Assembly (NCBI RefSeq): GCF_021497885.1
Contig: NZ_CP046523.1
Coordinates: 1,283,501-1,347,500 of the forward strand
Source of the DNA: Streptococcus oralis
Lineage (GTDB): Bacteria > Bacillota > Bacilli > Lactobacillales > Streptococcaceae
DNA: 64,000 bases
Direction of reading: 5' to 3'
Shown here: positions 21,633 through 26,160 of the stretch, piece by piece
Position numbering within the stretch: the stretch's first letter is position 1
Layout: each line of letters starts with the position of its first letter
Translations under genes and position numbers: made by a program
Notes under the pieces: generated by a model
The model's database searches: none
What the model saw: only the letters and a program-made list of their open reading frames with translations
Told to the model about the DNA's origin: nothing

Positions 21633-23012
21633 CTATTTTTCAGCTGTAAGTGCAGCCATTGTAATGTAGTTGTATGGCTTGTTGAAGTGTGGCAAGAAGA
21701 ATAAGTCTGTCAAAGCCAACTTGTCAATTGTCACATGCTCTTGGATAGCAAGTGAGAACATATGGATTCCCATGCTGATTGCAGAATCACGAGACACCAT
21801 TTGCGCACCTAGAATTTCACGGCTGTCTTTATCAAAAACAATCTTAATCGCAACTTCGTGGTTATCATGCTTCATAAATTCTGGTTTTTGAAGATCGTTA
21901 AAGCCTGTTTCAGTTGCATTGTAACCTGCTGCTTTTGCTTTTTCAAGAGTCAAACCAGTTGAAACCATGTGAAGACCATAGATTGAAATACCGTTTGATC
22001 CTTGCACACCGATTCCTTCCAATTCATGTCCACAAGCATTGTAAGCACCAACGATACCAGTACGTACAGCGTTAGATGCAAGAGCGATGTAGCTAGTGTC
22101 TTTACGAGCATTGTCATAAACAGTCGCACAGTCACCAACAGCGTATACACCTGGGATAGATGTTTCTTGTTTCTTGTCTACAAGGTAGGCACCGTTGCGG
22201 AAGAGTTCAATCTTACCGTCAGCAAGAGCTGTATTGGGACGGAAACCAACAGCAAGAACCACCATATCCACATCAAATGTTTCTTTGTCTGTTACCAAGC
22301 GTTCAACTTTACCATCACCTTGGATTGCTTTAACTGTTTGACCAAGAGCCAAGCGGATGTTGTGGTCTTCCAAGTTTTTCGCCATCAATTGAGTGAAGTC
22401 TTTGTCGTAGTAGCCGTTCAAAACAGTATCTACGATATCAACAAGCACCACTTCTTTGCCAAGACGTTCGAAAGCTTCAGCCAGTTCAACACCGATATAA
22501 CCACCACCAACAACAGCGATGCGCTCAAGGTGTTTGCTCTTGTCAGCAAGTTTGTTGATAACTTCTTCAGCGTTTTGGTACAATTTAACAAATTGAACAT
22601 TTTCAAGTGTTGCTTTAAATTCGCGGTTGCCCTTAACAATTTCAACACCTTCGATTGGAGGCAAGATTGGAGTTGAACCAGTAGCAAAGATCAATTTGTC
22701 GTAAGATTCTTTATGTTCTTGACCTTCAACCTCTGCAGTCACAACTTTATTGTCATAGTCGATTGAAAGAACAGGTGAGTTCATGTACACTTTAGCACCT
22801 TTTGCTTCCAATTTTTCTTTATCAGAGTAGAACAAGCCTTCTGCTCCATCAATTTGTTCCCCGATCCAAAGCGCCATTCCACAACCAAGGAATGAAATAT
22901 TTGAGTTTTGATCAAATACAACGATTTCATTTTCATGTCCAAAGTTGTCCAACATAGTGTTGATACATGCTGTACCAGCGTGGTTAGCACCAACTACAAC
23001 GATTTTACTCAT
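21633..23012 (-). CDS. nox: Water-forming NADH oxidase
   Basis: 459 aa FAD enzyme that reduces O2 to water with NADH and so clears oxygen and recycles NAD+. The redox cysteine is C44 in FLGCGMALW (single Cys, cycling through sulfenic acid). FAD/NAD-binding parts are VVVGANHAG at the N-terminus, [15 protein letters not shown] and YAVGDCAT. Length matches streptococcal Nox. A cre site covers the promoter. It is divergent from the apbE/FMN-reductase operon. Confidence 0.96.
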
Positions 23013-23049: not shown

Positions 23050-23078
23050 AGTATATCATTTACTGTTAGCGTTTACAA
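23050..23078 (-). promoter_or_regulatory. nox promoter with cre over the -35
   Basis: Minus strand TTGTAA (23073-23078), 17-nt spacer, TATACT (23050-23055). TGTAAACGCTAACA at 23064-23077 fits the cre consensus at every position and shares five of the six -35 bases, so CcpA and RNA polymerase cannot both bind. Confidence 0.82.
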
Positions 23079-23189: not shown

Positions 23190-23218
23190 TTGTGAAAACG
23201 CTGACTTTATGGTATGCT
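23190..23218 (+). promoter_or_regulatory. apbE operon promoter with cre over the -35
   Basis: TTGTGA (23190-23195), 17-nt spacer ending TGG, TATGCT (23213-23218). TGAAAACGCTGACT at 23193-23206 matches cre at 13 of 14 positions and overlaps the -35 and spacer. Confidence 0.75.
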
Positions 23219-23309
23219 AGATACATGGAAAGAAAATGTAAGGGGTTAAATTTTCTATTAATCTAACTTATCTTGAATGATTTCCTACAAGAAGAAAGGA
23301 GTTGGTAGC

Positions 23310-24239
23310 TTGCCTCTTCGTTCTCGTTCTGAACGGCTGATGGGAACAACTATCACTATTTCATTAGTAGATGAGCAGGCAGAAACCCTGCTTCAAGGTG
23401 CTTTTGACTTGCTCAAAGAGCTCGAATACCGCTTCAACGCCAACAGTCAAGAATCCGAACTGATGGAAATCAACTACCAGGCTGGAATCGCGCCTGTTAA
23501 GGTCCATCCTGACCTATTTGAACTGATTGCTCTTGGATTAGAACATAGTCTAGCTCCATCTAGCCACCTCAATATCAGTATTGGCCCCTTGATTCAAACC
23601 TGGCGAATCGGCTTTGCAGATGCACGGCTCCCAGAGCTAAACGAAATCGAAGCCGTCTTGCCTCTAGTTGACCCACATTTTATCAAGTTGGATCCGACTA
23701 ACTCTACTGTTTTTTTAGAGAAGAAAGGAATGAAGCTTGATTTAGGTTGTTTAGCCAAGGGCTATAGTGCAGATAAGGTTGCCCAGTATTTGAAAGAGCA
23801 CGGTGTCACCTCTGCCTTGATCAATCTCGGAGGAAATATCCTCACTATCGGGAATAACCAAGCCAAAGAAGGGAATGCCTGGCAGATTGGTATTCAAGAT
23901 CCGCGAAATCCGCGTGGCAATCATCTCCTAACTATCCCTGCTTCTAACAAATCCGTTGTCACTTCAGGTATTTATGAACGCCACCTGACAGTAGATGGAA
24001 AAGACTATCACCATATCTTTGATAGTGAGACAGGCTTTCCTGTCGAAACCGTTCTTGCTAGCCTAACGATTGTCTCTGATAAATCCGTTGATGGTGAGAT
24101 ATGGACAACACGCCTTTTCGGAGAACGAAGCGCTTCTATCCTCTGGCAAGTCGAAAGTATAGATGGGATTGAAGCCATCCTCATCGACAAAGAGGGACGC
24201 CTTGCTTGTTCTTCAGGCCTTCAAAATTGTATTATGTAA
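23310..24239 (+). CDS. apbE: FAD:protein FMN transferase (ApbE), cytosolic form
   Basis: 309 aa. Attaches FMN covalently to Ser/Thr of target proteins, using FAD. Family blocks visible: RLMGTTITI at the start, DLGCLAKGYSADK, LINLGGNI, and the metal/FAD motif HHIFDSETGFPVE. There is no signal peptide or lipobox, unlike exported ApbE lipoproteins, so it should act in the cytosol. The start is a TTG at 23310 placed 8 nt after AAAGGAG; the ATG at 23277 has no ribosome site. It is followed by two FMN reductases, the second with two candidate target motifs. Confidence 0.92.
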   Translation: MPLRSRSERLMGTTITISLVDEQAETLLQGAFDLLKELEYRFNANSQESELMEINYQAGIAPVKVHPDLFELIALGLEHSLAPSSHLNISIGPLIQTWRIGFADARLPELNEIEAVLPLVDPHFIKLDPTNSTVFLEKKGMKLDLGCLAKGYSADKVAQYLKEHGVTSALINLGGNILTIGNNQAKEGNAWQIGIQDPRNPRGNHLLTIPASNKSVVTSGIYERHLTVDGKDYHHIFDSETGFPVETVLASLTIVSDKSVDGEIWTTRLFGERSASILWQVESIDGIEAILIDKEGRLACSSGLQNCIM

Positions 24240-24880: not shown

Positions 24881-26125
24881 ATGAAATTTGTTGGACTTGT
24901 TGGATCAAACTACGATCAATCATATAACCGCAAACTCTTGGAATTTATCCGTCGCAATTTCAAATTCAAATTTGAATTAGAAGTTCTTGAAATTGACGAA
25001 GTTCCAATGTTTAACCAAGACGAAAAATGGGACGAAAGCTTCCAATTGCGTTTCTTGTATAACAAGATTACACGTGCTGATGGTGTCATTATCGCTACTC
25101 CTGAGCACAACCACACTATCTCAGCTTCTCTCAAATCTGTACTTGAATGGCTTTCATACGAAGTTCATCCATTTGAAAACAAGCCTGTTATGATTGTGGG
25201 TGCATCATACTATGACCAAGGAACATCACGTGCCCAAGTTCACCTTCGTAAAATCCTTGATGCTCCAGGTGTCAATGCCTACACGCTTCCAGGTAACGAA
25301 TTCCTTCTTGGTAAAGCTAAGGAAGCTTTTGATAACAACGGAAATATCACTAACGAAGGAACTGTTAAATTCCTTGAAACTTGCTTAGATAACTTTGTAA
25401 AATACGTAGGAGTCGTTTCGAAATTGAAAAAACCAAAACCAATCGAACCAGAAGACTTGGATTGTGGAAAACCAATTGCTACAACCATTACTGAAGTTGA
25501 TCCTGACGATCCAGAATGGGTAGAAAAAGTTGCAGCAATCACTGGAGCTGTTTCTGGTGATACCTATGTCAAACTGGACCACGGTATCCTTACAGTTAAC
25601 CAAATTGATATGTTCTTGAAAGCTATGCCATTTGAATTGACATACGCTGACGACAACAACCAATTCCTCTACTACAACAACGCTCACCAAGATCCAGACA
25701 CTATGTTCGCTAAACGTGTACCACCTCAATCAGGTAGCCGTATGTCGACTGTTCATGGATCCCTCCCACCAGCACGTATGAAGAACGTAGAGTGGGTTAT
25801 CGGAACACTTCGCAACGGAAACCAAGAATACGTTCGTACGATTGTTCCAGGTTCTCCTGCAGGTGTCATCAACACCCACAACTACCAAGCAATGTACTAT
25901 CCTGATGGATCATACGCTGGTATCAATGAAATCGTCTTTAACTTCCAACCATGGCTTGACTGGTACCTAAAAGAAACTGGTCAACGTTTGGTGGGTGGTA
26001 GCGGACCATTTGCTCCTGCAGCTGGAGGTCATGGAGACGCCGATGCTACTTCTGGCGCTTCTGATTCAGGGGATGCTGGAGGCCACGGTGGTGACGCTGA
26101 CGCTACTTCTGGCGCAAGCAACTAA
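24881..26125 (+). CDS. FMN reductase-PAS-like protein with tandem flavinylation motifs
   Basis: 414 aa in three parts. Residues 1-190: NADPH-dependent FMN reductase fold (LVGSNYDQSYNRKLL, ATPEHNHTISASLKSVLEWL, VGASYYDQGTSRAQ). Residues about 235-372: a PAS-like domain (LTVNQIDMFLKAMPFELTYA, then GSRMSTVHGSLPPA) resembling the C-terminal PAS of DUF438 proteins. Residues 373-414: a Gly/Ala/Asp/His-rich flexible tail with DATSGAS at 388-394 and again at 407-413. DxxSGA[S/T] is the ApbE acceptor motif, so S394 and S413 may each carry FMN. No signal peptide. Last gene of the apbE operon. The domain calls are by eye; the flavinylation is inference. Confidence 0.85.
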   Translation: MKFVGLVGSNYDQSYNRKLLEFIRRNFKFKFELEVLEIDEVPMFNQDEKWDESFQLRFLYNKITRADGVIIATPEHNHTISASLKSVLEWLSYEVHPFENKPVMIVGASYYDQGTSRAQVHLRKILDAPGVNAYTLPGNEFLLGKAKEAFDNNGNITNEGTVKFLETCLDNFVKYVGVVSKLKKPKPIEPEDLDCGKPIATTITEVDPDDPEWVEKVAAITGAVSGDTYVKLDHGILTVNQIDMFLKAMPFELTYADDNNQFLYYNNAHQDPDTMFAKRVPPQSGSRMSTVHGSLPPARMKNVEWVIGTLRNGNQEYVRTIVPGSPAGVINTHNYQAMYYPDGSYAGINEIVFNFQPWLDWYLKETGQRLVGGSGPFAPAAGGHGDADATSGASDSGDAGGHGGDADATSGASN

Positions 26126-26132
26126 GAAACCA

Positions 26133-26160
26133 AAAAGGAGCCACTTGGCTCCTTCTTTTA
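26133..26160 (+). terminator. apbE operon terminator
   Basis: AAGGAGCC, loop ACTT, GGCTCCTT (26135-26154), then CTTTTATT. Confidence 0.85.

Follow-up and report, generated by a model that had tools for sequence, protein, structure and literature searches.

What would a cytosolic flavin reductase do with a tail that looks made to carry covalent flavin? The question is raised by a locus within 64,000 nucleotides of Streptococcus oralis DNA (contig NZ_CP046523.1, positions 1,283,501 to 1,347,500; this whole stretch is the window below), where one gene encodes a 414-residue protein that joins a domain of the FMN_red family (FMN, flavin mononucleotide) to a PAS domain and a tail with two copies of the motif DATSGAS. 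Upstream of it on the same strand lie the genes for ApbE, the transferase that attaches FMN to such motifs, and for a 201-residue FMN_red protein, and the three genes form an apparent operon (Table 1). Our answer, to which we give a probability of roughly 0.7, is that the FMN tethered by ApbE serves as built-in flavin in a heterodimeric NADH:FMN oxidoreductase, composed of the 201-residue protein as FRedA-type subunit and the 414-residue protein as FRedB-type subunit.

The original prediction, made from the DNA letters without database searches, had described a flexible tail of 42 residues, rich in Gly, Ala, Asp and His and with motifs at residues 388-394 and 407-413 (19 residues apart), on a protein with a PAS-like domain, no FMN_bind domain and no export signal, encoded in one operon with a signal-less ApbE. 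This description was confirmed. Pfam assigns residues 1-147 to FMN_red (E = 1.9e-33) and residues 242-355 to PAS_10 (E = 7.8e-21), with a sub-threshold match to Flavodoxin_2; the same search found in this protein neither FMN_bind (PF04205) around the motif nor a fumarate-reductase-type FAD (flavin adenine dinucleotide) domain of the HcrB kind. AlphaFold gives a predicted local distance difference test score (pLDDT) below 50 for residues 374-414, and the relatives listed from the Protein Data Bank cover mainly residues 1-183, so that folds related to the PAS part are little covered. Neither the 414-residue protein nor the adjacent ApbE has an export signal by sequence, and none of 52 ApbEs taken from related loci (L069-L148) starts with a hydrophobic segment or lipobox; for the operon, extracellular electron transfer is ruled out because both proteins are without an export signal.

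The two motifs are difficult to ascribe to composition: shuffling the tail's own residues yielded two motifs in 7 of 200,000 trials (at least one in 2,891 of 200,000), and shuffling the whole protein yielded two in 0 of 50,000. Their two 21-nucleotide DNA copies are identical at 16 of 21 bases. The corresponding DNA pattern occurs at 23 sites in the genome, as against 7 for the reversed pattern (reading frame checked for the two tail copies and for an 814-residue paralogue described below). With the motif present in two copies and an ApbE present in the same compartment, the 414-residue protein is likely, as judged from its sequence, to be a cytosolic ApbE substrate that presents its motifs on a flexible tail in place of an FMN_bind domain.

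Relatives of this protein are widespread in the order, with matches at E <= 1e-70 in 120 of 295 sampled genomes and 40 of 74 genera; 83 of the 120 genomes lie outside Streptococcus. We fetched 60 loci from 59 of these 83 genomes together with 76 Streptococcus loci, giving 136 proteins, many of them near-identical, of which 80 non-redundant proteins remained at 95% identity. The original prediction had left the conservation and copy number of the motif to a family search, and the motif proved to be retained: D-x-x-[S/T]-[G/S]-A-[S/T] occurs in 78 of the 80, with the strict (G-type) form in at least one copy in 64. The number of copies per protein varies from zero to seven (none in 2 proteins, one in 4, two in 33, three in 31, four in 8, five in 1 and seven in 1), and 41 of the 80 carry three or more. 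The motif and its surroundings diverge at very different rates. Among 150 sampled pairs at 80-95% core identity (79 of the 80 proteins were usable), motif identity is 0.90 and linker identity 0.39, with 0.25 for shuffled linkers; below 65% core identity the linkers are close to the shuffled level (0.17 versus 0.15). On this comparison selection acts on the motif, and the linkers diverge nearly to random. In 56 of 72 proteins (one tie), the motif copies resemble one another more than they resemble those of the three closest relatives with less than 80% core identity; a plain shuffle of the same data, which ignores relatedness, gives 0.81 versus 0.61 (0 of 2,000 shuffles). This likeness within proteins, like that of the DNA copies, fits the internal duplication that had been proposed for the tail, together with homogenisation.

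Streptococci that keep apbE and lose the motif would have spoken against flavinylation, and they are not the rule: among the best 120 of 1,406 matches of a first database search, 119 have the strict motif, the exception (P0027, Streptococcus sp. DD10) having D-x-x-S-S-A-S. A search with a diverse alignment found the strict motif in 97 of its best 120 of 1,474 matches, only the S-type in 22 and neither in 1; in a scan for relatives with the diverse alignment, the best 80 of 505 confirmed stretches were all from Streptococcus. The variant D-x-x-[S/T]-S-A-[S/T] makes up 61 of 207 motif copies (for example in L098, L102, L105, L107, L110, L142, L144 and L146), and 12 operons with only this form have apbE within the fetched stretch. 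We looked for ApbE positions that track the S- or G-type of the motif and found no clean column (best difference 0.76; 12 S-only, 26 G-only and 12 mixed operons, phylogeny uncontrolled). The highest copy number belongs to a 534-residue member (L137) with six strict motifs and one S-type, and three proteins of about 712 residues (L134, with 713, P0121 and P0122) have repeated PAS-like segments with motifs between them, also near residue 192 within the chain.

Within Streptococcus, a match to the 414-residue protein at E < 1e-100 exists in 121 of 147 sampled genomes, another 12 match it only more weakly (8 of these 12 were listed, and are FMN_red parts of proteins of about 760-830 residues) and 14 have none. 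The match extends to residue 413 or 414 in 118 of the 121 (the exceptions being G006, G015 and G077), the tails themselves having been read in the fetched loci; copies are interrupted in G064, G109, G125 and G134, and the front is incomplete in G014. ApbE is found in 144 of the 147 genomes and FMN_bind in 65. Every one of the 121 genomes with the tail-type protein has ApbE. FMN_bind is without a match in 77 of them, and in 75 of these 77 there is a single ApbE. Where ApbE is absent, in three genomes, the tail-type protein and FMN_bind are absent too. Two genomes (G044 and G088) have ApbE with neither partner, which may point to some other ApbE substrate. In one locus (L076, genome G077) the tail protein stops at 362 residues, before the tail, and apbE is split into two frames, a single case of joint decay in which the tail was lost and apbE not kept. 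Among the database matches, the relatives go by the names 'NAD(P)H-dependent oxidoreductase', 'flavin reductase' or 'fumarate reductase precursor'.

In the S. oralis genome itself the ApbE of the operon is the single ApbE match, and the one FMN_bind match lies within the 814-residue paralogue, which starts with FMN_red, carries DAVSGAS in the FMN_bind domain and continues with an FAD-binding-like region. A 202-residue FMN_red gene lies directly upstream of it, forming an HcrAB-like pair (G000:C1:1735859-1737311, locus L069).

The part of the original prediction that stood was the cytosolic ApbE substrate with its flexible tail; what it missed was the second subunit. The 201-residue FRedA-type gene is the most constant neighbour of the tail gene, lying directly upstream by a strict rule in 131 of the 136 fetched loci, and upstream by map in the remaining five (L080, L117, L137, L140 and L147), where the frame of the tail gene was called too long. 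At least 110 of the 136 loci have ApbE no more than 1.5 kb upstream on the same strand, and at least 113 have it anywhere in the fetched stretch, both being lower bounds because some stretches were short. A tree was built of 41 chosen FMN_red domains (from 14 of the 73 pairs that were usable, two pairs each of the Lactobacillus and HcrAB-like kinds, and five PAS-less tail proteins). It separates the 14 short partners from the 14 tail-protein domains (support 95/94), and each Lactobacillus or HcrAB-like pair has one member on either side; the second gene of both Lactobacillus pairs and the short genes of the HcrAB-like pairs join the short partners. In a S. agalactiae transcriptome, genes annotated as apbE, FMN reductase and FMN reductase shift in concert (-2.09, -2.11 and -2.12; PMC6224512, from the entries available).

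This arrangement recalls the FRedA and FRedB proteins of Lactobacillus johnsonii, which must pair in order to bind FMN and oxidize NADH, and whose heterodimer has two FMN sites (dissociation constant 1.96 µM, Km for FMN 20 µM), yields hydrogen peroxide (H2O2), binds FMN weakly and leaves it exposed to solvent (PMC4500961, represented here and below by part of its text). The FMN-pocket residues given there are Thr9/Ser9, Ser14, Phe44, Glu73 and Asp75/Gln75. In 73 tail proteins we find Ser14, Phe44 and Glu75 in all 73 and Ser9 in 69, with Asn at position 77 in 70 in place of the Gln of FRedB; among the 73 short partners, Phe45 and Glu76 are invariant, and Ser15 occurs in 72, Asp78 in 67 and Thr10 in 65, and the S. 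oralis partner has all five. Because these pocket residues are kept, the streptococcal operon looks, at the level of sequence, like FRedA plus a FRedB-PAS fusion. The L. johnsonii paper also describes LjPAS, a 28-kDa protein fused to FMN reductases in other species (Lp2732 and EF1227 in the legend of its Figure 1).

In Lactobacillus the PAS domain and tail occur as a protein of their own, separate from the FRed pair. A search with the PAS-tail piece in 201 genomes of the Lactobacillus family gave matches at E <= 1e-10 in 90 (including weak DUF438-type PAS proteins), and 17 of the 20 regions that we read encode a stand-alone PAS protein bearing one or more motifs. Another region holds a 538-residue DUF438-type protein without a motif (L273) and another a fused form with four motifs (L274); a stand-alone Lactobacillus protein (L263) has its tail out of frame and is motif-less, unlike its close relatives. 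The Lactobacillus stand-alone proteins are 46-47% identical to a PAS domain from the FMN_red-PAS-tail family, and AlphaFold gives one of them a PAS fold with residues 205-245 disordered. In three loci (L264, L265 and L269) the PAS protein is located behind apbE. The L259 protein, for which a mass of 27.9 kDa is calculated, carries three motifs; among the best 120 of 263 matches to it, 91 have 200-290 residues (motif in 89, three motifs in 59), 14 are longer, fused proteins, and 15 are shorter than 200 residues (motif in 8, none in 7). One of the seven motif-less short relatives (P0284) ends inside the PAS region, three have another Pfam domain, and L. jensenii and L. intestinalis are among the matches listed. 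On mass, genus, gene spacing and PAS similarity, we take the stand-alone Lactobacillus proteins to be LjPAS-like.

A search for FMN_red domains in 19 Lactobacillaceae genomes whose PAS-tail is separate or divergent revealed adjacent FMN_red pairs free of additional domains in all 7 Lactobacillus genomes. In four Lactobacillus loci (L279-L282) an adjacent, motif-less FRed pair has apbE downstream in the same-strand cluster, and the motifs sit on the separate PAS protein; downstream of the pair, on the same strand, come a 267-274-residue protein and apbE, a 202-207-residue gene precedes the pair, and in three of the four loci a 345-346-residue protein comes before the 267-274-residue one. ApbE was present in all 44 genomes searched (42 of the 90, and two Streptococcus). 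The placement of the motifs on a separate, sensor-like partner in lactobacilli points to the tail as the enzyme's own source of tethered flavin. Three PAS proteins of much greater divergence (24-25% identity; L275, L276 and L277) carry three to five motifs; apbE adjoins the PAS protein in L275 and L277, and none was seen in L276.

The idea that a PAS domain always precedes the tail was rejected, because in two sister genera the motif sits on FMN_red itself, with no PAS between. In 16 loci from these two other Streptococcaceae genera (g98 and g104), a short PAS-less FMN_red protein with a C-terminal motif is found in 13; three (L296, L298 and L302) have no motif match, with DADTGST in L298 and L302. 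The apbE gene is next to the PAS-less gene in 14 of the 16, and a separate motif-less PAS gene lies close by in four (L288, L294, L295 and L297). These proteins probably belong to the class described from Lactococcus in PMC11334425 (drawn on here from part of its text), in which C-terminal extensions of FMN_red proteins hold one to two motifs, proposed to secure FMN at the known pocket, and in which the tails of L. lactis (WP_021723379.1) and L. taiwanensis (WP_205872264.1) were flavinylated by their own ApbE in Escherichia coli.

Others have established in relatives both a FRedA/B heterodimer that has two FMN sites and the covalent flavinylation of tails on FMN_red proteins; for the streptococcal operon we infer flavinylation, the heterodimer, NADH as donor, the electron path and the acceptor. 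The operon would encode a cytosolic NADH:FMN oxidoreductase, made of the 201-residue FRedA-type protein and the FRedB-type domain of the 414-residue protein, and the adjacent cytosolic ApbE would attach FMN to Ser394 and Ser413 of the tail. NADH would reduce FMN in pockets at the FRedA/FRedB interface, where the tethered FMNs would serve in place of free FMN, occupying the two weakly binding, solvent-exposed pockets; alternatively, they might dock, take up electrons and pass them on to O2, free flavin or another acceptor. The PAS domain would be the platform that anchors the tail and may regulate assembly.

Several observations weigh against this proposal. We know of no measurement of covalent flavin on the 414-residue protein or any other FMN_red-PAS-tail protein; 14 of the 80 members have only the S-type D-x-x-S-S-A-S, whose flavinylation is putative, and two (L121 and L128) lack a motif match. 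ApbE has other substrates: the 814-residue paralogue is likely the second one of its genome, and 15 of 16 genomes with split PAS proteins also have FMN_bind proteins, so the PAS-tail is not their only ApbE substrate. The five PAS-less FMN_red-tail domains form a branch of their own on the short-partner side of the tree. Nine split genomes from other genera (G502, G567, G457, G480, G562, G433, G532, G443 and G447) have mostly HcrB-like fusions of about 770-825 residues or scattered single FMN_red genes, and one of them (G532) has no FMN_red match at E <= 1e-25; without a clear FRed pair in these nine, the PAS-tail is not tied to FRedA/B everywhere, and in split genera outside Lactobacillus it must use another donor, or none of the FMN_red family. 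FRedA/B of L. johnsonii is active in vitro with free FMN and without a flavinylated PAS protein, and tethered FMN is therefore not essential to the chemistry there (PMC4500961). In the S. agalactiae study the product of the third of the co-varying genes, listed at +3.55 among the proteome data, is out of step with its transcript (PMC6224512).

How the tethered FMN would be used is where the explanations diverge. The tail might merely pin FMN into the FMN_red pockets, with no shuttling and no part for the PAS domain in electron transfer, and we put this not far short of even odds. In its favour are the published model, in which the motif lies near the FMN pocket, the weak binding and solvent exposure of FMN in the pockets of FRedA/B, and the commonest motif number, two, which equals the two pockets per heterodimer; this model and this number lean towards a fixed cofactor. 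It sits less well with the 41 proteins that have three or more motifs, with the Lactobacillus proteins, in which flavin would have to come in trans, and with the paralogue, whose motif sits in its own FMN_bind domain. These motif numbers above two and the PAS-tail proteins without an FMN_red domain lean instead towards mobility, as do the disorder of the tail, its unconserved linkers and, in 4 of the 16 loci from the sister genera, a PAS gene close to an FMN_red gene that itself carries the motif. The swinging arm of the original prediction, on which the covalent FMNs would visit the reductase site, the PAS domain and an acceptor outside the protein, is in our view possible but somewhat less likely than the pinned cofactor; its acceptor is hypothetical, and we saw no sign that the PAS domain binds flavin. 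We are more doubtful of the wider proposal that the PAS-tail is a self-standing cytosolic flavin carrier, loaded by ApbE with one to several FMN and shuttling electrons in cis (fused forms) or in trans (Lactobacillus) from FRedA/B or another FMN_red protein to acceptors, because the split genera outside Lactobacillus have no clear FRed pair; such a carrier may nevertheless be older and wider than the pair.

PAS domains often sense redox state or ligands, and the tail could be a flavin store or redox sensor, the PAS domain reading the state of the tail FMN and controlling subunit assembly as LjPAS slows the assembly of FRedA/B. When FRedB is pre-incubated with LjPAS, the initial rate falls by about half (from 6.8 to 2.6 units; PMC4500961), but the protein tested was made in E. 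coli, with no Lactobacillus ApbE mentioned in the text available, and was therefore probably unflavinylated; by Pfam, moreover, the 414-residue protein has no output domain besides the reductase, and we consider this account unlikely. That the motifs are relics or a low-complexity coincidence, not flavinylated in the cell, is very improbable. The tail is indeed of low complexity and a minority of members have degenerate motifs, yet composition shuffles rarely give two, the motifs are conserved while linkers vary freely, every Streptococcus genome with the protein has ApbE, and flavinylation has been shown in relatives. The built-in flavin of a FRedA/FRedB-type heterodimer remains our preferred reading.

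The features of the locus are collected in Table 1. Divergent from apbE lies nox, encoding a H2O-forming NADH oxidase (21633-23012, minus strand; NF046103, 764.8 bits), close relatives of which adjoin in only 4 of 78 mapped loci (L070, L071, L072 and L076). Between nox and apbE there are two cre-like sites (23064-23078, minus strand, and 23192-23206, plus strand), one exact and one with a single mismatch to a CcpA-type consensus; in the whole window there are 46 matches with at most one mismatch, versus 33 expected, and two of the 46 are exact. Terminator-like sites in the region number 3 versus 2.7 in shuffles, and are thus not in excess; in the region scan, neither promoter-like nor terminator-like counts rose above shuffles.

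Table 1. Features of the apparent apbE operon, with positions in the window
Feature	Position	Strand	Basis
apbE, FAD:protein FMN transferase, 320 residues, without signal peptide or lipobox	23277..24239	+	PF02424, E = 4.8e-75; N-terminus not hydrophobic
FRedA-type partner (putative), short FMN_red, 201 residues	24258..24863	+	PF03358, E = 6.5e-34
FRedB-PAS-flavinylation-tail protein (putative), 414 residues	24881..26125	+	Open reading frame call, Pfam, AlphaFold
FMN_red domain, residues 1-182	24881..25426	+	
PAS domain, residues 229-366	25565..25978	+	
Disordered tail, residues 373-414	25997..26122	+	pLDDT < 50 at 374-414
Flavinylation motif 1, DATSGAS 388-394, predicted FMN on Ser394	26042..26062	+	Consensus D-x-x-[S/T]-G-A-[S/T] (PMC12052999, available part)
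Flavinylation motif 2, DATSGAS 407-413, predicted FMN on Ser413	26099..26119	+	Same consensus
Terminator-like hairpin directly 3' of the tail gene, 8-pair stem then T-rich	26135..26154	+	Weak

Flavinylated FMN_red tails (PMC11334425, 2024) and the FRedA/B-PAS fusion (PMC4500961, 2015) are each already in print, and an ApbE substrate with an FMN_red tail is not new in kind. What is new here is the identity of the FRedA-type partner, the retention of motifs against diverging linkers, the co-occurrence with ApbE and the motif-bearing LjPAS-like protein. Among open-licence PMC papers we found none that joins flavinylated tails with FRedA/B-PAS or names a PAS protein as ApbE substrate, and on SP_1470-1472 or ApbE in Streptococcus we found only table entries; the 2021 survey of ApbE flavinylation, by the part available, retained only genes or clusters with a predicted export signal, and the terms 'FMN reductase' and 'PAS' are absent from the 2025 ApbE review. 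Joining the two literatures predicts that LjPAS-type proteins are ApbE substrates. If the tail is a carrier, the 28-kDa LjPAS, studied as a regulator of H2O2 production, would itself be a covalent flavoprotein, serving FRedA/B as its natural flavin partner; its flavinylation could explain both the weak FMN binding of FRedA/B and the apbE gene beside a motif-less flavin reductase pair in the four Lactobacillus loci. ApbE would thereby gain a cytosolic class of substrate, in which bare repeated motifs vary in number during evolution.

Each known system shares part of this design. A lipoyl or biotin swinging arm is a comparison of working principle only, the motif of the 414-residue protein sitting on a disordered tail. 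The multi-FMN proteins (PMC8238504, PMC12052999, parts of both) have several covalent FMN per chain, as predicted for the tail, but are extracytosolic and hold them in FMN_bind domains, whereas here bare motifs lie on a disordered tail. In the case of the Klebsiella cytosolic fumarate reductase (PMC12052999, in part), a signal-less cytosolic ApbE acts on a cytosolic covalent-FMN substrate, which is a different enzyme. In the hydroxycinnamate reductase HcrA/HcrB (PMC10295242, in part) and in the 814-residue paralogue, a short FMN_red gene is again paired with a long FMN_red protein, but the motif is located within an FMN_bind domain that precedes a fumarate-reductase-like region, neither of which the 414-residue protein has. 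The class of PMC11334425, found mainly in Firmicutes, shares FMN_red, an unstructured C-terminal extension with motifs and apbE next door; the 414-residue protein differs in the PAS domain between reductase and tail and in the second FMN_red gene upstream, and the main text of that paper does not contain the whole word PAS, nor PF13596, heterodimer or johnsonii. FRedA/FRedB of L. johnsonii are likewise two adjacent FMN_red paralogues, with the same FMN-pocket residues and with PAS fused in relatives; the main text of PMC4500961 is without the words 'covalent' and 'ApbE', and what distinguishes the streptococcal protein is that flavinylation motifs come after its PAS domain, as they likewise do in the LjPAS-size PAS proteins of Lactobacillus.

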